From Halogranum rubrum (GTDB lineage: Archaea; Halobacteriota; Halobacteria; Halobacteriales; Haloferacaceae), in contig NZ_FOTC01000001.1 of the NCBI RefSeq assembly GCF_900114455.1, forward strand, positions 1,265,058-1,329,057: DNA of 64,000 nucleotides, written 5' to 3'. Both the position numbers and the translations under genes were made by a program. The notes beneath the pieces were generated by a model. That model was not told the DNA's origin, did not search any database, and saw only the letters and a list, made by a program, of their open reading frames with translations. This document shows positions 10,807-52,428 of this stretch, in pieces (position 1 is the stretch's first letter; every line of letters begins with the position of its first letter).

Positions 10807-12633
10807 ATGGGTCAGAGGAAGCGGACGATTCTCCGCGTGGACCTCACCACACAAACGGTTCGGAGCGAACGCGTTCGGGAGCGATGGCTTCGAGAGTACG
10901 TCGGTGGGAAGGGACTCGGTGCGCGCTACCTCTACGAGGACGTGCCCGCCGGGGCCGACCCACTGGGGCCGGACAACTGCCTCGCGTTCCTCCTCGGACC
11001 ACTCTCGGGACATCTCCCCGGTGAGACACGGTACGCGGCCGTCACGAAATCACCACTCACGGGAGCGTTCCTCGACTCCTACAGCGGCGGGTCGTTTCCT
11101 GCTCGACTGGCCGGGTCGCTCGGCGAGAGCCTCGGACTGGTGGTCGAAGGACGAGCGAGCGAACCGGTCGTCCTCGTCGTCGACGAGGGAGACGCTCGTA
11201 TCGAACCCGCATCGGACGTGTGGGGTGCCGACACCGTCGAGACGGCCGAGCGGTTCTCCGACGCCGCCGTCGCTTGTATCGGTCCGGCGGGCGAAGCACG
11301 CGTCGGCTACGCGACTATCGCTTCCGACGGTGGCGAGCACCACGCCGGCCGCGGCGGTGCAGGCGCGGTGATGGGCAGTAAGCGACTGAAAGCCGTCGTC
11401 GCTCGGGGCGACCCGCCCGAGACGCCGCCGGACCTCGCTCGGCTTCGAGAGCAGGACGGCGCGGCGTTCGCCGACGGCGAGACGGGCAGGTGGCTCACCG
11501 CAGGCGAGACACTGGAGTCGGTCGACTTCGCCAACGAAGTCGGCGTCCTCGCCAGTGAAGGGTGGCAACACGGGCAGTTCGACGGTGCCGACGACATCGG
11601 TGTCGAGGCTGCCCGAGACGCCTCGGTCGGCCGCGAGAACCCCGAGGACGCAGTTCCGGGCGGGTTCCGCGTCGAGACGGACGGCGACGAGAGCGTCCCA
11701 CGCGGGGCCGCACCGATGACGCTCGGTGCGGGACTGGGTATCGACGACTTCGACGTGGTCGCGGCGCTCGGTGCGACCTGTGACCGACTCGGCCTCGACG
11801 TCATCAGCGCGGGGAACGCCGTCGCGTGGGCGGCACGGGCCGACGAAGACGGCCGAATCGACGCCGACGTCTCGTTCGGCGACGGCGACGCCGCCCGTGA
11901 CTTGCTCGCTCGAATCGCCCGCCGGGATGGGTCCGTCGCCGACGCGCTGGCAGACGGTGTCGATGCAGCCAACGACCGCTTCGGCGGCGACTACATCCCG
12001 ACGGTGAAGTCGATGGCCGTCCCGTCGTACGACCCGCGCGGGGCCGTCGCGATGGCGCTCGCGTACGCGACGAGTGACCGCGGGGGCTGTCACCGCCGGG
12101 CGCGACCCGTCGAACGGGAGGCGTTCGCCCGCGACGACTGGAGCACGGCCGACCGGGTTCGTGCGGTCATCACCGCACAGAACACGCGTTCCGTCCTCTG
12201 GAGTCTCGTCGCCGACGACTTCGCCGGCGAGACGCTCTGGGACGACTTCGGCCGGGAGTGGCTCGCCGCGAGCGGACGCGAGTACAGCCGAGACGAGTTG
12301 CGCGACGCCGGTCGGCGCATCTGGACGCTCGTTCGCCTGTTCAACGTCCGCGAGGGGTTCACCCGCGCGGACGACGAACTACCGACCGCGTTCCGGCGGC
12401 CGCTGACGGGCGGCCCCGCCGCGGGCAGGCGTATCGACGCGGCTGGCTTCGAGCGACTTCTCGACGCCTACTACGCCGCTCGCGGGTGGGGCGACGACGG
12501 CCTGCCGACCCCAGAGGTCGTCGAACGACTCGGCCTCGCCGACGTCGTCGACGCCGATACCCCGCTGAGCGCCGACCCGACGACGGCACCGACCGCCTCG
12601 ACGACCGCTCACCCGGAGACGAACGATGACTGA
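10807..12633 (+). CDS. Aldehyde ferredoxin oxidoreductase family protein lacking the Fe-S cysteines
   Basis: This 608-residue protein belongs to the tungsten-cofactor AOR family. It has the N-terminal domain (RVDLTTQTV, YVGGKGLGARYLYEDVPAGA), the tungstopterin-binding motif RGGAGAVMGSKRLKAVV at 182-198, CDRLGLDVISAGN near 325-337, ATSDRGGCHRRA near 421-432, and the C-terminal GFTRADDELPTAFRR. In characterised AORs a CxxCxxxC motif near residue 290 and a fourth Cys near 490 hold a [4Fe-4S] cluster. Residues 270-310 here contain no Cys, and the fourth position (around 460-475) also lacks one. Aldehyde oxidation with ferredoxin as acceptor is therefore doubtful. It is followed after 2 bases by an acidic protein gene. 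Confidence 0.85.
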   Translation: MGQRKRTILRVDLTTQTVRSERVRERWLREYVGGKGLGARYLYEDVPAGADPLGPDNCLAFLLGPLSGHLPGETRYAAVTKSPLTGAFLDSYSGGSFPARLAGSLGESLGLVVEGRASEPVVLVVDEGDARIEPASDVWGADTVETAERFSDAAVACIGPAGEARVGYATIASDGGEHHAGRGGAGAVMGSKRLKAVVARGDPPETPPDLARLREQDGAAFADGETGRWLTAGETLESVDFANEVGVLASEGWQHGQFDGADDIGVEAARDASVGRENPEDAVPGGFRVETDGDESVPRGAAPMTLGAGLGIDDFDVVAALGATCDRLGLDVISAGNAVAWAARADEDGRIDADVSFGDGDAARDLLARIARRDGSVADALADGVDAANDRFGGDYIPTVKSMAVPSYDPRGAVAMALAYATSDRGGCHRRARPVEREAFARDDWSTADRVRAVITAQNTRSVLWSLVADDFAGETLWDDFGREWLAASGREYSRDELRDAGRRIWTLVRLFNVREGFTRADDELPTAFRRPLTGGPAAGRRIDAAGFERLLDAYYAARGWGDDGLPTPEVVERLGLADVVDADTPLSADPTTAPTASTTAHPETNDD

Positions 12634-12635
12634 CG

Positions 12636-13361
12636 ATGACTGACCGTATCGACCTCGACGAACTGGACGTATCGAGCGACGACGAACCCGAACCGAACCG
12701 CGGCGACTGGTTCTGGAAGGGCGAGGGTGACCCGGACGACGAAGCAGTGAGTACGACTGCAGGCACTCCCGGTGAGAGCGACTCGCCGGGACAGTCCACG
12801 GCCACGGACGAACCGTCGAGTACGGACGACGTGACAGCACAGTCGCACACTGCCGTCCCGCGCGTCCCCCGGAACGACGACGACAAGCCAGTGGGAATCC
12901 CGATGGAGTCCGGCGGCGGTGGTGGGACGGCCGCCCAGCACCGCGACGACGACGCCAGCGACGCGCCGTACGGCGACCCCTACGGCGACACCACTGCCGA
13001 CATGACGCTCGTCTTCACCTACCGGGCGCTCAAGCGACTCGAACTGTTACACGCCGCGCTCTCCGACGCCGAGACGTGGACCGACTACGTCGGCCTCGTC
13101 GGCGAAGTTCCCGCTCACGTGCTGAACAAGTTCCAGCGCGACCAGCGTCTCGACGTCGACTTCTTCAACGGCGGCAGTCTCGGCCCCGCCGAACGCCTCG
13201 CCGAAATCGACCAACATTCGATGTTCTACGCCGAGCGGATGGTCGTCGTCGGCGTCGAAGACGAGTCGTGGGTCGCCGAGGAGGCCGACTGGGAGTTCGT
13301 CGACATCGTCGACGCCGCCGCCGAGGCTGACTGGCCGCTCTCGGAAGACGCATCGAGCTAA
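12636..13361 (+). CDS. Acidic haloarchaeal protein (possibly DUF7124)
   Basis: This 241-residue protein has two parts. The first 120 residues are low-complexity and strongly acidic with a tryptophan motif GDWFWKGEG; the last 115 residues are a compact domain (MTLVFTYRALKRLELLHAAL to the FVDIVDAAAEADW end). I recognise it only as a conserved haloarchaeal unknown. It starts 2 bases after the AOR-like stop, in a duplicated CGATGACTGA context, so it is almost certainly co-transcribed and may be an accessory of that protein. Confidence 0.8.
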   Translation: MTDRIDLDELDVSSDDEPEPNRGDWFWKGEGDPDDEAVSTTAGTPGESDSPGQSTATDEPSSTDDVTAQSHTAVPRVPRNDDDKPVGIPMESGGGGGTAAQHRDDDASDAPYGDPYGDTTADMTLVFTYRALKRLELLHAALSDAETWTDYVGLVGEVPAHVLNKFQRDQRLDVDFFNGGSLGPAERLAEIDQHSMFYAERMVVVGVEDESWVAEEADWEFVDIVDAAAEADWPLSEDASS

Positions 13362-14418: not shown

Positions 14419-15048
14419 CTACCGAGCCATCTGCGCGACGAGTTCGTCTTCGAACTCGACGAGACCCTGCAAGACGAGTGCTGCGGCCCTGAACAGGTCG
14501 TCGTCCGTCTCGTCGAGCACGTCGTCGACGAACTCGCCGACCCACGTCGTGAGATGTTCGTCGAGGAAGACGCGCTCGTAGCCGAACGCCTCCTCGGCAC
14601 CGGTCGCCTGCCGACCGATGATCCACCGGAGAAAGGCGAGTTCGACGGCGACGAAGTCGTTCTCTTCGGGGTAGTTCTCCGGCGGGGTCCACCCGGCAGC
14701 GGCGTAACTCGCCTCGACGTCTGCGAGTCCCTGCCCCATGTAGTCGGTGTCGTCGCGGTAGTAGCTCTCGTGGGGCAACACGGGCGGCCGCGGGCCGACG
14801 AAGACGCGGGTGTACTCCACTTCGAGTTCCTCGTGGAGTTCGTCGAGAGGGCGTCCCTGGTTCGCTTCGATGTACGACTGGAGCACGTCGAACCCCTCGT
14901 CGAGCGCGTCGTTGACGTGGCCGTCCGGGACGACGACTTCACCAGCGAGGAGGCTCTCGACGAACTCCCGGTCGGGGACGTCCCAGAACACCTCGATGAC
15001 GAAGTCGACGAGTTCCGTCCGCGCGTCGTAGATGGCGCTGTCGTCCAT
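14419..15048 (-). CDS. TorD/DmsD-type molybdoenzyme assembly chaperone
   Basis: This 209-residue, all-helical, acidic protein begins MDDSAIYDARTELVDFVIEV. It contains the family-like core LEVEYTRVFVGPRPPVLPHESYYRD, where the EYTRVF and P-x-E-S residues match TorD/DmsD chaperones that bind the Tat signal of molybdenum enzymes. Its ATG lies inside the stop of the upstream Fe-S gene. Together they are divergent from a formate-dehydrogenase-type catalytic subunit with a Tat signal, which is the probable client. Confidence 0.88.
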   Translation of the reverse strand: MDDSAIYDARTELVDFVIEVFWDVPDREFVESLLAGEVVVPDGHVNDALDEGFDVLQSYIEANQGRPLDELHEELEVEYTRVFVGPRPPVLPHESYYRDDTDYMGQGLADVEASYAAAGWTPPENYPEENDFVAVELAFLRWIIGRQATGAEEAFGYERVFLDEHLTTWVGEFVDDVLDETDDDLFRAAALVLQGLVEFEDELVAQMAR

Positions 15049-17168
15049 CACTGTCCCCCCTGCTCGAACATGAGCGTCGCACGGCACTCGCCGCAGTACT
15101 CGAAGATGCTGTGGTCGCTCTGTGGTGCGATTCCTTCGACGAGATGGCCGACGTCGTCCATGACTTTCTCCGCGGAGCCCTGACTGGTAAAGGGTTTGCC
15201 ACAGCGCGCGCACTCCAGCATCTCGCCCTCGTAGACCGTACTCCATCGCTCGCCGTCGCGGTTCTCGGGGAGGAGCGACAGGTCGAGTCCAGCCTCCATG
15301 GTGATGGCCGTCTCGGGACAACCCTCCTCGCACAGTTCGCAGTTGACGCAGTCTTCGTGGTTGAACTGGAGGTCACCGTCGTCGGTCCGCCGAATCGCGT
15401 CGGTCGGACAGAGCGTCGAACACGTCGGCGTGAGGTTGCAGGCGTCGGAGACGTCCATCCGCCCGAAGTTCTGTAGTCCGCGAATTACGTCGCGTTCCGG
15501 CGAACTGTGCTCGACGATGGTGCGGATACTCTCCAGCGTCCAATCGTGGTTGTTGTACTCGGGGTTCGGCTTCTCCTCGCGGACGACGCCGATCGACTCG
15601 TAGTCGCCTGCGGGAACGGGTGTCGTCTCCAGTCCACCGACGAAGTCGTCAAGTTCGTCGACGAACGCGCTCGGATCGTCGGCCTCGGGGGCGAGAAACG
15701 TCACCCGCTCGCCGAGTCCGAGGTCGGTCGTCGCCCGACCGAGACGGTCAACCAGTTCGGCCTTCGGGTCCGGTCCGGAGTGGAGACACGAGGAGCCACA
15801 ACCGACGATGGCGACGCCGTCGGCACCGGCGGCGAGCGCGTGCAACGCGTGCGCCTCGCCGACAGTATCGGTACAGTTGACGCGAACCGGGAGGATGGGT
15901 GCGTACGAGAGGTCGGCGCCAGCGGCCGACTGCCGCCCGTACTCGCGAAGCGCGTCGGCCGCGTACTCCGAGCAGACGAAGGCAACGACGGGCGTCTCGA
16001 TACCGGCAGTCTGGCGGTCGAACAGCCACCCGCTGCCGCGTTCCTCGGCGTCGAGGAGGGATTCGACTTCGCGGGCGATGCGACGGTTCGAGGGTTCGCG
16101 CAACTGGACGGCCCCGGTCGGACACGAACTCGTACAGGCCCCGCAGTTCATGCAGGCCACCTCGTCGAACTCGACTTCGTCCACCTTCGGCCGGTCGACG
16201 GCGTCGTGCGGGCAGGCGTCGACACAGACGGTACAGCCCTCTTGGCTCGACTCGCCCGCCGCACAGACGTCCATCTCCAAATCGAGGAACTTCGGTTTCT
16301 CGACGCCGCCGAGGTGGTGTTCGACGCTGGCGACGGTGGCGGCGTCGACGGGGCCGGTGTAGAAGCCGATTCGGCCACCTCGTGCGCCGTCCGTGGCTCC
16401 GGGGTAGACGACTTGGTCCACCTCGACGGTTCGCTGGACACCAGAAGCGTCGATGGCGTCGGTCGGACAGCAGTCGAGCCACTCGCCGTCGGGTGCGTTC
16501 GGCGAGATGTCGACCGGGCGGGCGGTCACCGCACCGTCCGGCCCCTGCTCGACACACTCCATACAGGAGATGCAGTCCTCGGTGACGAGCGCTTCGAGCG
16601 TGAGCGTGAACTCGCCGAACTCGCCGTCGACGCCGACGACACGGCCGCGTTCGATAGCGACGTCGTCGAGTCCGGAGACGCCCGCGAAGTCGTGACCGTG
16701 GGCGACGAGCGTCACGTCGGCGGTGTCGGCGAGTGCGGCGGCCGTCTCGGGGTCGCCGACGACGGCGACGCGGTCACCGGTCGTCTGCGAGACGTACCGA
16801 CTCGACGCTTCCTCCTGCAACCCGGCCGTCGTCGCGTTGATGAGTCGGGCGGTCTTGTCCGTCGACTCGTCGGCGGAGTGAACCCAACTCGTGCGCTCAC
16901 GGTGGTCGACGAAGGCCGTCGCCTCCGGATGGAGACCCTTCTCCTCGGCGAGCGTCTCGATTCGGCGCTGACAGCCGTCGTCGGTTGCAGTGGCGATTAT
17001 CTGGTCGAGTTCGTACTCGTCGACGAGCGCACCCATCGCGTCGAGTCCGTCCTGACAGAGAAGCTCAGAGCTCGCGACGACGTCGACGTCGCGGACGCCG
17101 TCGCGGACACCCTCCAAATCGAGGTCACAGGTGCCACCACAAGAACAGACGAATGCACCGACGTTCAT
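15048..17168 (-). CDS. HdrA/MvhD-like multi-cluster iron-sulfur protein
   Basis: This 706-residue protein combines several modules. Residues 1-90 resemble the HdrA N-terminus (VCSCGG, Cys 38, Cys 66). Residues 131-160 occupy the place of the HdrA FAD fold, but the nucleotide loop reads VVGDPETAAAL instead of GxGxxG. Residues 197-240 carry CxxCxxC plus a later CCP; 300-350 hold two ferredoxin-type clusters; 394-470 look like an MvhD domain with four Cys; 577-620 hold two more ferredoxin clusters; and 651-697 form a two-CxxC zinc ribbon. In methanogens HdrA and MvhD join hydrogenase or formate dehydrogenase to electron bifurcation. Here it probably passes electrons to or from the divergent formate-dehydrogenase-like complex; this is inference. 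Confidence 0.85.
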   Translation of the reverse strand: MNVGAFVCSCGGTCDLDLEGVRDGVRDVDVVASSELLCQDGLDAMGALVDEYELDQIIATATDDGCQRRIETLAEEKGLHPEATAFVDHRERTSWVHSADESTDKTARLINATTAGLQEEASSRYVSQTTGDRVAVVGDPETAAALADTADVTLVAHGHDFAGVSGLDDVAIERGRVVGVDGEFGEFTLTLEALVTEDCISCMECVEQGPDGAVTARPVDISPNAPDGEWLDCCPTDAIDASGVQRTVEVDQVVYPGATDGARGGRIGFYTGPVDAATVASVEHHLGGVEKPKFLDLEMDVCAAGESSQEGCTVCVDACPHDAVDRPKVDEVEFDEVACMNCGACTSSCPTGAVQLREPSNRRIAREVESLLDAEERGSGWLFDRQTAGIETPVVAFVCSEYAADALREYGRQSAAGADLSYAPILPVRVNCTDTVGEAHALHALAAGADGVAIVGCGSSCLHSGPDPKAELVDRLGRATTDLGLGERVTFLAPEADDPSAFVDELDDFVGGLETTPVPAGDYESIGVVREEKPNPEYNNHDWTLESIRTIVEHSSPERDVIRGLQNFGRMDVSDACNLTPTCSTLCPTDAIRRTDDGDLQFNHEDCVNCELCEEGCPETAITMEAGLDLSLLPENRDGERWSTVYEGEMLECARCGKPFTSQGSAEKVMDDVGHLVEGIAPQSDHSIFEYCGECRATLMFEQGGQ

Positions 17169-17374
17169 TGTCAGTTCTCACCCGGGGCACGCGCAAAGAG
17201 CTTGTGTCCGAGTACGGCTCTGTCGACGAATTCTTTCGGAATCGAGAGGTCAGTTTTGGAGTTCCGACAAACAGGAGAATACTTCCGCAAAGAAACCTCG
17301 ATTGCCGATAAACGAAGCGCCGCGGCCAGTGCACTCTTTACCGGCCCACTTGTTGCTCGGCTTAGCAGTAGGGA

Positions 17375-17398
17375 GTTCGCGTGTCGGAACGCGCGAAC
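17375..17398. promoter_or_regulatory. Inverted repeat just before the formate-dehydrogenase-type operon
   Basis: GTTCGCG (17375-17381) and CGCGAAC (17392-17398) form a 7-base inverted repeat with a 10-base spacer, ending 8 bases before ATG 17407. It may be an operator in the divergent 238-base region or a leader hairpin. Confidence 0.4.
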
Positions 17399-17406
17399 GG
17401 GATATT

Positions 17407-20400
17407 ATGAGCACCGAACCAGTTTCACTCGACTTAGACAGACGCTCGTTTTTGAAAGCGAGCGCACTCGCAGGGGGAATCGCGCTCGGCGGCGGTGGGG
17501 CCGGACACGCACTCGCAGCGGACGACGGCGAGACGGACGGAGCCGACACCGGGACCGAACTCACGAAGACCATCTGTAACTTCTGTGCGGTCGGTTGCGG
17601 GTTCAAGGCCGAACGTGACGGTAACGCCTTCGTGGGCCAAGAGCCGTGGCACGAACACCCGGTCAACAACGGGTCGCTCTGCTCGAAGGGCGCGGCCATC
17701 TACGGCAGCGAACACTCCGAGCGACGGCTCAAACATCCGATGGAGAAGCAAGACGGGTCGTGGCGGAAGCTCTCGTGGGACGACGCCTACGAGAAAGTCT
17801 CCAGCGAACTCACCCGCATCAAAGAGGAGTACGGTCCGGACAGCGTGATGTGGATGGGCAGCGCCCACCACTCCAACGAGGAGGCGTACGCCTTCCGGAA
17901 ACTCGCCTCGTTCTACGGGACGAACAACGTCGACCACCAGGCACGCATCTGCCACTCCACCACCGTCGCCGGCTTGGCGAACACGTGGGGTTACGGGGCG
18001 ATGACCCAGACCATCAACGACTACCGGAACTTCGACCTCAACCTCATCATCGGGCAGAACCCCGCCGAGGCCCACCCGATTGCGATGCAGCACATCCTCG
18101 AAGGCCAAAGACGGGGCGGAACAATCGTCTCCGTCGACCCACGGTTCACGAAGACGTCGGCGCACGCCGACTACTACTACCGGATGCGACCCGGCACCGA
18201 CGTCGCGCTCATGATGGGCGTCATGCGATATCTACGTGAGCAGGACGAACTCGACCAGGAGATGCTGGACGAGCGAGTCATGGGGTGGCCCGACGTCGAC
18301 GCCGAACTCGACGAGTACGACCTCGAAACGGTCTCCGACATCACGTGGATGTCCGTCGAGCAGATTCAGGAACTCGGCGACCTCATCATCGAGAACAAAC
18401 CCAACGTCCAAATCGAGTGGGCGATGGGCGGCACACAGCACAACAACGGGACGCAGAACATCCGTTCGTACGCACTGCTCTCGTTGGCCTCCGGGTCGGC
18501 GGCGCGTTCTGGCGGCGGCCTGCAAGTGATGCGCGGCCACGCCAACGTGCAGGGGGCGACCGACCTCGCCGTCGCCAGCCACATCTTGCCGGGCTACTAC
18601 TCCGTCGGGTCACCGGGGTCGTGGCAGTACTGGTGCGACGTCTGGTCGAAGAGCCCCTACACGAGCGGGACGGTCGAGTTCGAGGAGTTGTACGAGGAGT
18701 ACGGCATGATGCCCGACGACCTCTACACCAAGGGCAACTCCTACGCCTCGTACAAGAAGGCGGGGAACCCCGAGTCGTCCGACGCCGACGGGGGCGGCAA
18801 CCAGCGTAGCGACTCGTTCCCGAGCGAGCAGTCGATGATGTTCCAGAAGGGACTGACCGTCGCTCGCTGGTACGACGGTGCGCTCCCGCAGGAAGAGCGT
18901 CTCGTCGACTCGGAACTCTACCAGCCAAACGAGTTGAAGGCCGTCGTCATCTGGGGGCACTCGGCGAACTCCATCACCGAGATGGACAAGATGAAAGAGG
19001 CGATGGACAACCTCGATTTGGTCGTCATCGTCGACCTCTTCCCGTCGGTGGCGAGCGTCATGCCCGACCGGGACAACGTCGTCGTCCTCTCGGCGTCGAG
19101 TCAGTACGAACATCACCGTTCGCTGACGAACTCTCATCGCTCCGTTCAGTGGAGCGACCCGGTTCGGCCGCCCTCGGGCAACACCAAACCGGACATGCAG
19201 ATCATGCAGGAACTCGCCGACCGACTCGGTTTCGGCGAACACTTCGACTGGGGGTCGGGGTCGGAGATTTACAACGGCAAATCGACGTACCAAGAGGCGC
19301 TCCGCGAGGTCAACCTCGGGGTTCGGACCATCGGCTATCAGCAGGACCCCGAACGGCTAGAGAAACAGCGTGAGTACGACTACGCGTTCAGTACGGAGAA
19401 CCTCCGCTGTAACGAGGAGGGACTGCCGGTCAGCGGCGAGTACTGGCAACTACCGTGGCCGTGTTGGGGTGAGGGCCACCCCGGCACGCCCATCATCTGG
19501 AACGACGACATGGACCCCCGCGAGGGCGGTCACGACTTCCGTGCCCGGTGGGGTATCGACGCCCCCGCTCCCGACGAGTGGGAGCAGATGAGCACGGGCG
19601 ACAAGTCGTACCCGATGCAGGCGACCGTCGAGCAGGAGGGCGAAGCGGGACTCGACCTCCTCAGAGACTCCTACGAACCCGAGTGGTGGGACGCGACCGT
19701 CTACGGCGTCCCCCAGTATCCCGGTTTCACGACGACGCTTCCCGAGGACTACACGAATCCCGACGCGCTGAGTCTCCCGTACGAGTACGCGTTGGACCCG
19801 ACGAAGTCCGTCTACGACACGGCCGTCGCGATGAACGAGCGGTACGGGACGAACTACGACGAGGAGTTCTACGAGCAGTACGACTACAAGCAACCCGACG
19901 CGCCGACTGGTCGAGGGCGTGCACGCGCCGTCTCGTGGAACTTCATCGACACCGTGCCGGTCCACCGCGAACCGATAGAGAGTCCGCGACCGGACCTCGT
20001 CGAGCAGTGGCCGGCCAACGGCGAGCAGAACAACTTCTACCGCCTCGACCAGAACAACGCCGTCGTCCAGAAAGAGGCGACGGCGAAGGCGGCCAGACAG
20101 GAGGTAAACACTGTCCTCACCTCGGGTCGGCAGGTCGAACACCAAGGCGGTGGTGCGGAGTCGCGGTCGAACATCTACACCGCCGACCTGCAACCGCACA
20201 TGTACGCGGAGATTCATCCGACGATGGCCGAGGACCTCGACGTCGAGGGCGGTGACCTCGTCGTCATCGAGACGACGGACCGTGGGTCGATACTCGTGAA
20301 GGCGCGAGTGACCCACCGGCCGAACGAGAAAGAGACGTTCCTCCCCTACCACTGGGGCGGCGTCTGGCACGGCAAGAGCCTCGAAGCGAAGTATCCCGAC

Positions 20401-20670
20401 GGGCATCTGCCCTACGCCATCGGCGACTCGGTGAACCTCATCACCGGGAAGGGGTACGACGTGGAGACGCAGATGCAGGAGACGAAGGCGGCGCTGTGCC
20501 GCGTCGAGAAGGCGACGACCGAGTTGGTCCAAGAGTTGAGCATGAAACCGATTTCGAAAGGTGGCCTCGACGACGAGGCTGACCTCTCGGCGCTCACCTT
20601 CCCGCAGGACCGCGAGGGTATCGGCGAACAGAAAGACTTCGACGTGCGTGAGAACACGACGATTCAGTGA
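17407..20670 (+). CDS. Formate-dehydrogenase-type molybdopterin oxidoreductase, catalytic subunit
   Basis: This 1087-residue protein has a Tat signal (DRRSFLKASALAGG... ending near AHALA-like residues 33-38), so it is exported across the membrane. A [4Fe-4S] site uses Cys 57, 60, 64 and 92. In ARICHSTTV, Cys 182 occupies the position of selenocysteine in FdnG-like formate dehydrogenases, with the following His conserved. The IIGQNPAEAHPIAMQ segment and the C-terminal molybdopterin-dinucleotide domain complete the family pattern. It should oxidise formate (or reduce CO2) on the outer side of the membrane, passing electrons to the next three gene products. A formate-related substrate is the best guess. 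Confidence 0.9.
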   Translation: MSTEPVSLDLDRRSFLKASALAGGIALGGGGAGHALAADDGETDGADTGTELTKTICNFCAVGCGFKAERDGNAFVGQEPWHEHPVNNGSLCSKGAAIYGSEHSERRLKHPMEKQDGSWRKLSWDDAYEKVSSELTRIKEEYGPDSVMWMGSAHHSNEEAYAFRKLASFYGTNNVDHQARICHSTTVAGLANTWGYGAMTQTINDYRNFDLNLIIGQNPAEAHPIAMQHILEGQRRGGTIVSVDPRFTKTSAHADYYYRMRPGTDVALMMGVMRYLREQDELDQEMLDERVMGWPDVDAELDEYDLETVSDITWMSVEQIQELGDLIIENKPNVQIEWAMGGTQHNNGTQNIRSYALLSLASGSAARSGGGLQVMRGHANVQGATDLAVASHILPGYYSVGSPGSWQYWCDVWSKSPYTSGTVEFEELYEEYGMMPDDLYTKGNSYASYKKAGNPESSDADGGGNQRSDSFPSEQSMMFQKGLTVARWYDGALPQEERLVDSELYQPNELKAVVIWGHSANSITEMDKMKEAMDNLDLVVIVDLFPSVASVMPDRDNVVVLSASSQYEHHRSLTNSHRSVQWSDPVRPPSGNTKPDMQIMQELADRLGFGEHFDWGSGSEIYNGKSTYQEALREVNLGVRTIGYQQDPERLEKQREYDYAFSTENLRCNEEGLPVSGEYWQLPWPCWGEGHPGTPIIWNDDMDPREGGHDFRARWGIDAPAPDEWEQMSTGDKSYPMQATVEQEGEAGLDLLRDSYEPEWWDATVYGVPQYPGFTTTLPEDYTNPDALSLPYEYALDPTKSVYDTAVAMNERYGTNYDEEFYEQYDYKQPDAPTGRGRARAVSWNFIDTVPVHREPIESPRPDLVEQWPANGEQNNFYRLDQNNAVVQKEATAKAARQEVNTVLTSGRQVEHQGGGAESRSNIYTADLQPHMYAEIHPTMAEDLDVEGGDLVVIETTDRGSILVKARVTHRPNEKETFLPYHWGGVWHGKSLEAKYPDGHLPYAIGDSVNLITGKGYDVETQMQETKAALCRVEKATTELVQELSMKPISKGGLDDEADLSALTFPQDREGIGEQKDFDVRENTTIQ

Positions 20671-20672
20671 TT

Positions 20673-21341
20673 ATGTCGACAGAGAACAACGAGGAAGTGA
20701 TGGGACAAGGTGTGATGAGTACCGGCGACGGTGCGCGCATCTTCCCCGACGTCGAAGCGTGTATCGACTGTGGCGGCTGTGTCGTCGCCTGCAAACGAAC
20801 GTGGGACATCGGCCCCGGCGAACAGCGAATCAGCATCTCGACGATGCTGGAGGGCCAAGAGGGAGCGAAGGGGCTCAACGCGTCGAGTTCGCAGGCGCTC
20901 GCACAGGGCAAGTCGCCCGGCGAGACGAGCGTCCCGATGCAGTGTTACCACTGCGACAACGCACCCTGTGTCTCGGTCTGTCCGGTCGACTCGCTGGTCA
21001 AGAAGGACAACGGGTTCGTCGAAGTTCGGGAGAACCTCTGTGTCGGCTGTCAGTACTGCCTGACCGCGTGTCCGTTCGGCGCACCGCAGTTCCCCGAGTC
21101 CGACGACGGTGCGGCGCAACTGTTCGGCAGCGGCGGAACGATGGACAAGTGTACGATGTGCGAAGACCGCCAAGACGTCGGCAAGGGGCCGGCCTGCGCC
21201 GAAGAGTGTGCGACGGACGCCATCCTCGTCGGCACGTCGACCGAAATCGCCGACGAACTCGACGAACGTGGGAGTAAGCCGTTCTTCAACGACAAGGCGA
21301 TGGAAGTCATCTTCGGCGAGGACGCGGAGGCGTTCGAATGA
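20673..21341 (+). CDS. Formate-dehydrogenase-type 4x[4Fe-4S] electron-transfer subunit
   Basis: This ferredoxin-like subunit (222 residues from ATG 20673; a GTG at 20667 overlapping the previous stop would add two) has four cysteine clusters: CIDCGGCVVACKR, CYHCDNAPCVSVCP, CVGCQYCLTACP and CTMCEDR...CAEEC. This is the FdnH/HybA/DmsB layout, a wire between the molybdopterin subunit and a membrane cytochrome b. It lacks its own signal peptide and is probably co-exported with the Tat-signal subunit. Confidence 0.92.
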   Translation: MSTENNEEVMGQGVMSTGDGARIFPDVEACIDCGGCVVACKRTWDIGPGEQRISISTMLEGQEGAKGLNASSSQALAQGKSPGETSVPMQCYHCDNAPCVSVCPVDSLVKKDNGFVEVRENLCVGCQYCLTACPFGAPQFPESDDGAAQLFGSGGTMDKCTMCEDRQDVGKGPACAEECATDAILVGTSTEIADELDERGSKPFFNDKAMEVIFGEDAEAFE

Positions 21342-21781
21342 GTGACCTCCCAGAGACAGAAGACTACAGCGGCCTCAGCATCGCCGTCAACGCCGTCGTC
21401 GCACTCGCCGTCACCGCGCTCATCCTCTGGTGGGCCAGCGGGTTCGCCGTCGACTTCGAGGCGTTGTTCCGAGTGCAACCGACCGTCGAAGGCGGCGGCA
21501 TCGGCGCGGACTGGGTCGCGGGCAACAACATCTGGTGGCTGACGGGCGCCATCAAACTCGTCCACCTCGCCGACGTGGTGATGGGGGCGTTCATCCTCCT
21601 GATGGTGTTCGTCCACTGGGGTGCGTTCCGACGGTTGGCATCGCAGATGCGCCCGCCGGGGAGCGCCCGAGCGACGCGTGACGGGGCTGTCACCGACGGC
21701 GGACAGAGTCGCGTCGACGACGCAGAGCACGAGCGCCGCGATAGCGACGGGACTGCGACAGCGAAGGGAGGTGACCGCTGA
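21338..21781 (+). CDS. Small membrane protein of the formate-dehydrogenase-type operon
   Basis: This 147-residue protein has hydrophobic helices near residues 14-33 and 68-93, the second containing HLADVVMGAFILLMVFVHW with two His that could contact haem or quinone. The C-terminal 40 residues are polar and low-complexity. It is coupled by 4-base overlap to the Fe-S subunit before it and touches the cytochrome gene after it, so it is probably an extra membrane subunit. I know no named family. Confidence 0.8.
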   Translation: MSDLPETEDYSGLSIAVNAVVALAVTALILWWASGFAVDFEALFRVQPTVEGGGIGADWVAGNNIWWLTGAIKLVHLADVVMGAFILLMVFVHWGAFRRLASQMRPPGSARATRDGAVTDGGQSRVDDAEHERRDSDGTATAKGGDR

Positions 21782-22788
21782 TGGGGACGAACCTTGACCA
21801 CGGGAAGTTCACGAAGATGACGACGACGTTCCACACGCTGCTCGCGTTGGACGTGTTCATCCTCTTCTTCTCGGGGTACAGCCTGATGTTCAACGACGAA
21901 CTCTGGTGGATGGTGCTCCTGATGGGCGGCAACACCGGCGTCCTCGCCGTCCACCGACTCGCGGGTGCAGGGCTGCTCACGCTCATCACGTTCTGGATGC
22001 TGATGATGGTGACGACGGACACGGGGCGGAGCAACTTCCGCGAGATTCTCCCCACGAAGGGCGACGTGTTGGCGTTCGTCCAAGACATCAAGTTCGTCCT
22101 CGGACGCGCCGACGAACGACATCCGAACGCTCGGCAGTTCGCCGGCTACAAGGCCGACGAGGTGCCGTTGCTCTCGTACATCGGCAAGGGTGTCGTGTTC
22201 ATCTTCGCCACGGAGTTGACGCTCTTGAGCATCTCCGGCGTCCTCATCTGGAGTAAGACGGGCGTCGTCAGCCTGTTCGCCACCAAGACGGCGGCGACGG
22301 CGTTCGTCGTCTTCCACGGTCTGCTCGGCGTCATCATGCTGATGGGAATCATGTTCCACATCTTCGAGCACAGCTTCCACCCGGCGTTCTTCCCGGTGGA
22401 GGTCAAGGCGTTCATCCCGCGCTCGGAGATTCCGGAGTCCCACGAACACGACGACGCTGAGACGACGGGTATCGAGCGACTCACGCTGTCGCGACACTGG
22501 GGGTGGGCGACGCACGTCGTCGGCGCGTTCACCGTCATCGGCATCGTCAGCGTCATGGTCGGTAGTATCTTCGACGAAGGGTTCCCCGTGCCGGCGGACC
22601 TCGCTGTTGGCGGCGGACCGACGGACCTGCTCTTGACCATCGGCATCAACATCGGCGTCTTCGTGTTGTTCCTCGGCATGGTGCTGCAGATGTACGGGAA
22701 CCTCCTGCGCGTGCGCTGGGAACGGCAACTGAAGACGCGTCGTTCGCGGACGGCCACCGACGGCAGCGGAAGCCGAAGCGACGACTGA
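21781..22788 (+). CDS. Cytochrome b subunit, FdnI-like
   Basis: This 335-residue membrane protein begins MGTNLDHGKFTKMTTTFHTLLALDVFIL. The first His-containing helices resemble the N-terminus of di-haem cytochrome b561/FdnI proteins. Candidate haem ligands are FHTLL, the later AVHRLAG, VFHGLLG and MFHIFEHSFH. Besides the four core helices there is a C-terminal extension with two further helices (around residues 245-315). It should anchor the complex and pass electrons to the menaquinone pool. Confidence 0.9.
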   Translation: MGTNLDHGKFTKMTTTFHTLLALDVFILFFSGYSLMFNDELWWMVLLMGGNTGVLAVHRLAGAGLLTLITFWMLMMVTTDTGRSNFREILPTKGDVLAFVQDIKFVLGRADERHPNARQFAGYKADEVPLLSYIGKGVVFIFATELTLLSISGVLIWSKTGVVSLFATKTAATAFVVFHGLLGVIMLMGIMFHIFEHSFHPAFFPVEVKAFIPRSEIPESHEHDDAETTGIERLTLSRHWGWATHVVGAFTVIGIVSVMVGSIFDEGFPVPADLAVGGGPTDLLLTIGINIGVFVLFLGMVLQMYGNLLRVRWERQLKTRRSRTATDGSGSRSDD

Positions 22789-48597: not shown

Positions 48598-49821
48598 TCA
48601 GTCGAACTGGTCGAGCGTCGTCCGGTAGCCGGTTCGGACGTAGTTCACGAGCGAGCCTTCGATGTCGAGTCCGAGGGCGTCGACAGTCGCCTCGCCGACC
48701 CGGTCGGCCGCGTCGGCAGGCGCGTAGACGCCGAGTCGCCACTGCTGGCGCTGGGCGGTTCGCAGCGCACCGACGAGCGGCGACTGGCGGTCCAGTTGCC
48801 GGACGTCGCCGTTGACCATCACGCGTGACGAGGATTCCGTCATCGACGGTTCGGCGGGGACGTCGATGATGACCTCGCCTGGGTCGACGTCCGTCTGTTC
48901 TGCGACGTTCTGTTCGAATTCGCGAATCTTCTCGTGTGGGGCGGTGAGGACGTGTTCGGGCACGTCGTCGAGTTCGACCCAGAGGCCGCGCTTGTAGAGG
49001 TCACGTCGGTCGAGACGACGAGCGAGTTCTGCGGTCGACGCTGTCGTCCGGAGACTCGCCAGCAGGTCGTGGTCGTCCATCCGGCGCAGTTGGTCCGCGG
49101 TGACGTCCGGTTCTGCGAGCAGACGTTCGGAGGCGCGACGAAGCATCGCTTTCGAGATGCGGGCGACGTGGTGTTGGTAGACGGTCGGGTTCATCAACGC
49201 TCGCGCGAGCAGGAGTGACTCGGCCGTCTGGACGTTCCCCTCGTCCAAGACGAGTTCACCGTCGACGAACGTCAACTCGCGGACCAGCCGTTCGGTGTCG
49301 ATGGTGCCGTAGGGGACGCCGGTGTGGTGGGCGTCACGCACGAGGTAGTCCATCCGGTCGACGTCGAGTTCGCCCGAGACGAGTTGGCCGTACTGCCCGC
49401 CGCCAGCGACGAGTTCGGCGACGGCGGCGGGGTCGAGGTCGTGGTCGCGGAGCACGTCACCGACTTCACCGCGCGCGAGCAGTTCGTCCACGTCGTCGTG
49501 GTACTTGCCGGTGTGGCGGAACGTGAGTGCCTCGATGTTGTGACTGTAGGGACCGTGGCCGACGTCGTGGAGGAGGGCGGCGGCGCGGAGTCGCTCGGCG
49601 AGCGTCCCCTCGATGCCGAGATGCGAGAGCGCCTGCGAGGCGAGGTGGTAGACGCCGAGGCTGTGCTCGAAGCGCGTGTGGTTCGCGGAGGGGTAGACGA
49701 GACGGACGGTCCCCAACTGCTTGATGTGCCGGAGTCGTTGGACCTCCGGCGTGTCGAGGAGGGCGGCGGCGACGCCCTCGACCTCGATGTGGTCGTGGAC
49801 GCTGTCCTTGATGGTAATCAT
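48598..49821 (-). CDS. HD-domain phosphohydrolase, copy 1
   Basis: This 407-residue HD-superfamily protein starts MITIKDSVHDHIEVEGVAAA. It has ANHTRFEHSLGVYHLASQAL, the metal motif LLHDVGHGPYSHNIEAL, and GELDVDRMDYLVRDAHHTG. These match dNTPase-like/SAMHD-type HD proteins. It probably hydrolyses nucleotides or nucleotide-like phosphates. A close paralogue lies at 51208-52428. Confidence 0.88.
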   Translation of the reverse strand: MITIKDSVHDHIEVEGVAAALLDTPEVQRLRHIKQLGTVRLVYPSANHTRFEHSLGVYHLASQALSHLGIEGTLAERLRAAALLHDVGHGPYSHNIEALTFRHTGKYHDDVDELLARGEVGDVLRDHDLDPAAVAELVAGGGQYGQLVSGELDVDRMDYLVRDAHHTGVPYGTIDTERLVRELTFVDGELVLDEGNVQTAESLLLARALMNPTVYQHHVARISKAMLRRASERLLAEPDVTADQLRRMDDHDLLASLRTTASTAELARRLDRRDLYKRGLWVELDDVPEHVLTAPHEKIREFEQNVAEQTDVDPGEVIIDVPAEPSMTESSSRVMVNGDVRQLDRQSPLVGALRTAQRQQWRLGVYAPADAADRVGEATVDALGLDIEGSLVNYVRTGYRTTLDQFD

Positions 49822-51207: not shown

Positions 51208-52428
51208 TCAGTCGACGTGGCCGACGCGGACCCCGAGCACGTTGCTCACGGCGTCGGCGACGCTGTCGACGTGGTCGCTCGCCGTGTAGACACCGAGTCG
51301 CCACTGTGCTCGCTCGGCGTCTCGTAACGCACCCACCAGTTCGGAGGCCTCTTCGAGACGCTGGACGACACCACCGACGACGACGCGGGCGTTCGACTCC
51401 TTGAGGCTCGGGCGGGAGAGAACGTCGACGACGACGTCCGCCGGGTCGACGCCGGCCTGTGTCGCGATTTCGCGCTCGGCGGCGCGTTCGTCCGCGTGAC
51501 CGCAGTCGACGACACCCGCCGGGACGTCACCGAGGCCGGCCCAGACCGCTCGTTTGTACAGGTCGCGGCGCTCGATACGTCGCCCGAGTTCGGGGACGTG
51601 CTCGCGGAGGGCGACGAGTAAGTCGTGGTCCGCCATCCGCTGAAATCGCTCGACGCTCACGTCCGCCTCGTCGCTAGCGAGGAGACGTTCGGCGGCCCGT
51701 TCGAGCATCGCACCCGCGATACGCGAGACGTGGTGGCGATAGACGATGCCGTTCATCAGCCCGCGGGCGAAGAGGAGCGATTCGGCCGTCTGGACGTTTC
51801 CCTCGTCCAAGACGAGTTCACCGTCGCGATACCTGAGTTCTCGAACCAGCCGTCCAGTGTCGATGGTACCGTAGGGGACGCCGGTGTGGTGGGCGTCGCG
51901 CACGAGGTAGTCCATCCGGTCGACGTCGAGTTCCCCCGAGACGAGTTGGCCTAACTCGCCCTCGCCACGGATGTGCGCAGCGACGCGCGTCGGGTCGAGT
52001 CCGTGGTCGGTCAGCACGTCGTGAACGGTCGGGTTCGTCGGGGGGTCGGTCGGGTGGCCCGCCTCGGCGTCGGTCAGGAGCCACTCTATCTCGTCGTGGT
52101 GACGCCCCGTCTCGCGCATGATGACGTGCTCGGTCTGGTGGCCGTACGGACCGTGGCCGACGTCGTGGAGGAGCGCGGCGGCGCGGAGGTGGTCGGCACG
52201 CTCCCCAGAGATATCGAGGTTATCGAGATGCGAGAGCGCCTGCGAGGCGAGGTGGTAGACGCCGAGGCTATGCTCGAAGCGCGTGTGGTTGGCCGACGGA
52301 TAGACGAGACGGACGGTCGAGAGCTGTTTGATGTGGCGGAGCCGTTGGAACTCGGTGGTGTCGACCAAATCTTGTGCCAGCGGGTCGAGCGAGATGTAGT
52401 CGTGGACGCTGTCCTTGACGGCGGTCAT
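51208..52428 (-). CDS. HD-domain phosphohydrolase, copy 2
   Basis: This 406-residue paralogue of the protein at 48598-49821 shares long identical stretches such as RLVYPSANHTRFEHSLGVYH and GELDVDRMDYLVRDAHHTGV, with the same HDVGHGPYGH metal motif. Most of its middle differs, including an insertion with TDPPTNPTVHD. It is likely a nucleotide or dNTP phosphohydrolase. Its start is preceded by no close gene on the same strand. Confidence 0.88.
   Translation of the reverse strand: MTAVKDSVHDYISLDPLAQDLVDTTEFQRLRHIKQLSTVRLVYPSANHTRFEHSLGVYHLASQALSHLDNLDISGERADHLRAAALLHDVGHGPYGHQTEHVIMRETGRHHDEIEWLLTDAEAGHPTDPPTNPTVHDVLTDHGLDPTRVAAHIRGEGELGQLVSGELDVDRMDYLVRDAHHTGVPYGTIDTGRLVRELRYRDGELVLDEGNVQTAESLLFARGLMNGIVYRHHVSRIAGAMLERAAERLLASDEADVSVERFQRMADHDLLVALREHVPELGRRIERRDLYKRAVWAGLGDVPAGVVDCGHADERAAEREIATQAGVDPADVVVDVLSRPSLKESNARVVVGGVVQRLEEASELVGALRDAERAQWRLGVYTASDHVDSVADAVSNVLGVRVGHVD

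Follow-up and report, generated by a model that had tools for sequence, protein, structure and literature searches.

In Rhodobacter, NapF, a cytosolic polyferredoxin, is required for the iron–sulfur (Fe-S) assembly of exported NapA (PMC10609526). In the SO_4506/FdhT/FdhAB system of Shewanella oneidensis, an Fe-S protein and a TorD-type chaperone are co-regulated with fdhAB (PMC5826389), and ferredoxin genes inside TorD-fdh operons had been reported in a survey from 2015 (PMC4464133). The locus described here lies in a 64,000-nucleotide stretch of the Halogranum rubrum genome (contig NZ_FOTC01000001.1, positions 1,265,058 to 1,329,057; hereafter the window, in whose own numbering all coordinates are given), where a gene for a 706-residue Fe-S protein stands back to back with formate dehydrogenase (FDH) genes and next to a gene for a TorD-type chaperone. 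We regard this protein as a strong candidate for a factor that assists in the assembly of formate dehydrogenase. In the reading that we favour, to which we give a probability of about 0.6, it would be a cytosolic, flavin-less polyferredoxin that works with TorD to mature enzymes exported by the twin-arginine translocation (Tat) pathway and containing a molybdenum or tungsten bis(pyranopterin guanine dinucleotide) cofactor (Mo/W-bisPGD), here formate dehydrogenase.

By analogy, a role like that of NapF is favoured: both are cytosolic-type, multi-cluster ferredoxins linked to an exported molybdoenzyme (PMC10609526). The likeness is one of working and not of family, the 706-residue protein being far larger and HdrA/MvhD-derived. 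The NapF model TIGR00402 was not among its 25 best NCBIfam matches, and relatives scored 42 and 55 bits against a cut-off of 102. SO_4506 is likened to it by description and serves as a lead only. Relatives in sequence are the "4Fe-4S binding proteins" of bacterial FDH3 clusters, for which no function is described in the literature found; these are homologous over most of their length, share 19 core cysteines and have TorD and FDH neighbours, but are only 24–28% identical and lack the FlpD cysteines, and FdhD coexists with them in some clusters.

Architecture and predicted fold

The ORF of the Fe-S protein (15048–17168, minus strand) was confirmed, and the protein is, on its sequence and predicted fold, a genuine relative of HdrA and MvhD. 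As in HdrA2, an N-terminal domain, ferredoxin modules and a C-terminal MvhD fusion could be recognised. NCBIfam HdrA-type models matched residues 2–139, the HdrA N-terminal domain, and again residues 307–514, a ferredoxin/HdrA2 region running into the FlpD/MvhD domain, which Pfam placed at 394–513 (PF02662, 59 bits against a cut-off of 22.3). Unlike MvhD/FlpD itself, this domain is fused inside a larger protein. Hidden Markov models (HMMs) also identified several 4Fe-4S domains and a C-terminal part (575–697) resembling HycF, the Fe-S subunit of formate hydrogenlyase. This HycF-like C-terminus sets the protein apart from HdrA2, as do its setting beside molybdoenzyme and TorD genes and its score of 101 with the HdrA2 model, where the cut-off is 1100. 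No match to FdhD (PF02634) was found in the Pfam scan, nor any DNA-binding or signalling domain in the Pfam and NCBIfam scans, and neither an export signal nor a transmembrane segment was detected in the sequence.

An AlphaFold2 model was built with 43 natural sequences as input (predicted local distance difference test, pLDDT, 86.2; predicted template-modelling score, pTM, 0.81). All 12 Foldseek matches with E ≤ 0.001 were to HdrA, MvhD or 7z0s_F, a formate-hydrogenlyase subunit; the HdrA matches, among them structures 8rvu and 5odc, reached E 3e-19 at best, and the MvhD chain 5odc_D aligned with a root-mean-square deviation of 2.1 Å. An initial annotation, made from the letters of the window, had proposed that the protein combines HdrA-like and MvhD-like parts without the GxGxxG loop that binds flavin adenine dinucleotide (FAD). 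The HMM matches and the fold, which is HdrA/MvhD-like and not an unrelated one, agree with the first part of that description, and the loop bears out the second. The stretch between residues 139 and 307 is 168 residues long, against about 436 in HdrA2; some 270 are missing, and with them the greater part of the FAD domain. What is kept is a short Rossmann-like stub whose loop, VVGDPETAA, has VGD in place of GxGxxG, with residues G138 and D139 conserved in relatives. The loss of most of that domain led us to reject flavin-based bifurcation by this protein. No HdrB or HdrC partner gene was found among the flanking window genes scanned, the rest of the genome not having been searched.

The putative metal sites comprise the HdrA-insert cysteines (199–234), a 2x[4Fe-4S]-type module (302–349), a second ferredoxin module (577–617) and a C-terminal Cys4 site (653, 656, 692 and 695), all of which may hold clusters. 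When 16 family members, haloarchaeal and bacterial, were aligned together, 19 cysteines were invariant: eight at 302–349, seven at 577–617, and the four of the C-terminal site. Such invariance between archaea and bacteria at 24–28% identity speaks for the importance of the core metal sites. The main haloarchaeal forms retain the cysteines of the HdrA N-terminal domain, of the HdrA insert and of FlpD (the last being C399, C432, C457 and C461), all or some of which are missing from the minor haloarchaeal forms and from the bacterial ones; counts of 29/31 for window-type sequences include two rows that were probably badly extracted. The motif CxxCxxCxxxCP at 577–587 reads CxxTxxCxxxCP in the main haloarchaeal forms, with Thr580 where bacterial and minor haloarchaeal members have Cys. 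The Thr580 variant may hold a [3Fe-4S] cluster or one with different ligands.

A constant chaperone and changing client enzymes

At the window locus, the chaperone gene (14419–15048, minus strand; TorD/NarJ family, PF02613, 96.3 bits against a cut-off of 22.2) follows the Fe-S gene so closely that its ATG and the Fe-S stop codon share one base, an adjacency conserved among relatives. A spacer of 238 nucleotides (17169–17406), in which no conserved regulatory motif was found, separates the Fe-S gene from the divergent plus-strand operon fdhA–fdhB–small membrane protein–fdhC. FdhA (17407–20670; PF00384, PF01568 and PF04879) bears the twin-arginine signal DRRSFLK and the active site ARICHS, in which Cys-His replaces selenocysteine (Sec)-His. 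Its closest solved relative is the Cys-tungsten FDH of S. oneidensis (PDB 9VAP, 721 bits), and it scored 445 bits with the NCBIfam Fdh-alpha model, under the cut-off of 666. With Mo/W-bisPGD domains, a Tat signal and a Cys/Sec-His site, the predicted protein has the features of a Tat-exported formate dehydrogenase. It is followed by an FdhB-type multi-[4Fe-4S] subunit (20673–21341; PF13247, 62.6 bits; 143 bits with FDH3_beta, under the cut-off of 240), a small membrane protein with two transmembrane-like segments and no family match (P0005, 21338–21781), and the cytochrome b561-type membrane subunit FdhC with multiple such segments (21781–22788; PF01292, 66.1 bits). The gene content is as the initial annotation had described it.

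Relatives of the Fe-S protein were then sought in 292 haloarchaeal genomes, that of H. rubrum included, at E ≤ 1e-20. Homologues were found at 82 loci in 79 genomes. FdhA homologues occurred in 77 genomes, 75 of which also carried the Fe-S homologue (Fisher p ~4e-62, not corrected for phylogeny). Conservation of the gene and of this association across haloarchaeal genomes excludes chance. Most homologues lie beside FDH genes: at 76 of the 82 loci FdhA is no more than 25 kb away, and at 65 of these it is divergent and within 1.5 kb (median spacer between homologue pairs, 245 nucleotides). A TorD gene is near all 82: the search placed it within 25 kb at 78, immediately adjacent and on the same strand at 69, and at the remaining four a more diverged TorD adjoins the Fe-S homologue. 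A pattern scan was based on a haloarchaeal alignment, one of haloarchaeal and bacterial members having no stretch conserved enough. Of 63 loci drawn from genome records, 51 are of the window type, every one with FdhA on the opposite strand and TorD present.

The client enzyme changes. A second FDH type (FDH2), whose operon ends with TorD, was seen at seven of the 82 loci and at several of the genome-record loci. A separate haloarchaeal clade accompanies a Tat-type, NrfD-anchored molybdoenzyme, in the order molybdoenzyme–FeS–NrfD–small protein–TorD–Fe-S homologue–Mrp/ApbC–MobA. Both the FDH2-type and the NrfD-type clients bear Tat-type signals. In the tree, which comes from a quick search in which some of these forks are modestly supported and the bacterial branches are long, the FDH2-type and molybdoenzyme-type groups are nested among window-type sequences. 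Since one clade sits with the NrfD-anchored molybdoenzyme, a formate-specific role for the Fe-S protein was rejected. Among bacterial relatives (Pseudomonadota), sampled in small number from plasmid records, all eight annotated regions hold FDH3 clusters with TorD; three also contain Mrp/ApbC, two MobA and three FdhD.

The NrfD-anchored molybdoenzyme clusters are those of loci L033, L039, L047, L049, L110 and L113. ArsR-type regulators are often found near them, and L033 also has ArsD/ArsA. Identification of the enzyme as an arsenate reductase was not adopted, as even the best models, PhsA (193–196 bits) and ArrA (about 110), gave scores far below their cut-offs.

Maturation weighed against other roles

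All the loci have a TorD-type chaperone, and some also have an Fe-S carrier (Mrp/ApbC) and a molybdenum cofactor gene (MobA), while enzyme type and membrane anchor vary. Maturation machinery being the shared partner, a maturation factor is favoured over an electron-transfer module. The same preference follows from the Fe-S protein having neither export signal nor membrane segment while its clients have Tat signals; of FdhA and the Fe-S protein only the former carries such a signal, so that mature FdhA probably lies across the membrane from the latter. Judging by sequence, fold prediction and gene order, we infer a cytosolic protein that would bind several clusters, contact its partners physically and act in maturation. 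TorD would hold apo-FdhA by its signal peptide and its cofactor cleft. The Fe-S protein would then dock and contribute either a [4Fe-4S] cluster or the electrons needed to insert clusters or cofactor, possibly so that the sulfido ligand can be delivered. Once complete, FdhAB would be exported via Tat and join cytochrome b. A maturation factor had been the second choice of the initial annotation, and it now fits better, TorD staying nearby while the client changes.

Several points weigh against this. The main haloarchaeal forms still have all four FlpD cysteines, which are a mark of electron transfer, and a gene of the aldehyde:ferredoxin oxidoreductase (AOR) family is a frequent neighbour at FDH-type loci. 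Gene neighbourhood is indirect evidence, and no interaction or knockout data on the Fe-S protein were found in the literature; in Cupriavidus necator, none of the knockouts of membrane-FDH operons altered fitness (PMC11540253). FdhD coexists with the Fe-S family in some bacteria. One haloarchaeal genome (G129, locus L056) has an FDH operon and TorD with neither a full-length Fe-S homologue nor FdhD, so the Fe-S protein is not universally required.

The initial annotation had preferred an electron-transfer module by which the oxidation of formate at the membrane would be connected with an Fe-S protein in the cytosol. As weighed here, the protein would pass electrons between the FDH system and a donor or acceptor in the cytosol, for example the neighbouring AOR-family enzyme or a ferredoxin, in the manner of MvhD/HdrA. 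This is unlikely, though it keeps a real share of the probability, and it survives because the FlpD cysteines, set in a fold that superposes well on MvhD, are conserved and the AOR neighbour is frequent. An AOR gene is near 41 of the 51 window-type loci and directly adjoins the Fe-S homologue in L054 and L055; moreover, HdrA-like subunits accompany BamB, the AOR-family protein of benzoyl-CoA reductase (PMC13328260). Set against these are the Tat signals that clients have and the Fe-S protein lacks, which would split the proposed partners across the membrane, the loss of most of the FAD domain, the change of client, and the bacterial and minor haloarchaeal forms without FlpD cysteines. AOR itself occurs in 163 of the 292 genomes, far above the 79 with the Fe-S protein, and was not seen at molybdoenzyme-type loci or in bacterial clusters. 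Partnership with AOR as the primary role was judged weaker on its wide occurrence and its absence from the molybdoenzyme-type loci, and membership of the AOR gene in the functional unit is uncertain.

A decaying HdrA–MvhD remnant, serving as a structural scaffold with non-functional metal sites, would account for the lost FAD domain, for the cluster motifs missing in parts of the family and for the Thr580 replacement, but is improbable given 19 cysteines held invariant between archaea and bacteria at such low identity. Least probable is a redox or formate sensor controlling the divergent FDH operon, suggested by the divergent arrangement and short conserved spacer; a sensor role had also been raised by the initial annotation. 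No evidence for it was found. The protein has no detected DNA-binding or signalling domain, the spacer no conserved motif, and the divergent layout is absent at FDH2, molybdoenzyme-type and several bacterial loci.

FdhD in Halobacteria and neighbouring genes

FdhD is the sulfur-delivery protein that activates formate dehydrogenase in well-studied microbes. A family search (PF02634) did not detect it in any of the 292 haloarchaeal genomes, though 77 carry FdhA homologues; in a phylum-wide draw it was present in 108 of 148 genomes, and among the matches listed all were outside the order of the window. A profile made from 13 archaeal and three bacterial FdhD sequences returned nothing at E ≤ 10 in 29 haloarchaea, with a positive control at 1e-91. 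FdhE gave no match above its cut-off, a weaker test in which E. coli alone among the controls scores. A 2023 review had pointed out that halobacteria often have formate dehydrogenases without fdhD, leaving the proteins of cofactor insertion and sulfuration unexplained (PMC10609526), and Halodesulfurarchaeum formicicum, a haloarchaeon with a membrane-bound FDH, has been shown to grow in a formate-dependent manner (PMC5437934).

The Fe-S protein and TorD are locus-linked candidates for FdhD-less FDH maturation, and the survey turns the halobacterial FdhD gap into a question about two specific genes. With FdhD, the Fe-S protein may share the overall step of FDH activation. That the two perform precisely the missing steps, tungsten or molybdenum cofactor insertion and reductive sulfuration, independently of FdhD and with parts from the heterodisulfide reductase of methanogens, is a more speculative proposal that we consider doubtful. 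If maturation is indeed the role, HdrA/MvhD parts of methanogen energy metabolism would have been reused, flavin-free, to build other enzymes.

On the chaperone side of the locus lie the AOR-family gene (10807–12633, plus strand; PF01314 and PF02730) and, adjoining it, a gene for a DUF7124 protein (12636–13361, plus strand; PF23439, 122 bits). DUF7124 was found near 48 of the 51 window-type loci and was not seen at molybdoenzyme-type loci. Of the AOR matches in about 25 genomes, many had one internal TGA, possibly from alignments overrunning the native stop near the C-terminus. Farther along the window, two minus-strand genes about 1.4 kb apart (48598–49821 and 51208–52428) encode proteins of about 407 residues with very similar N-termini; the first, the one of the pair that was scanned, has HD and HD_assoc_2 domains.

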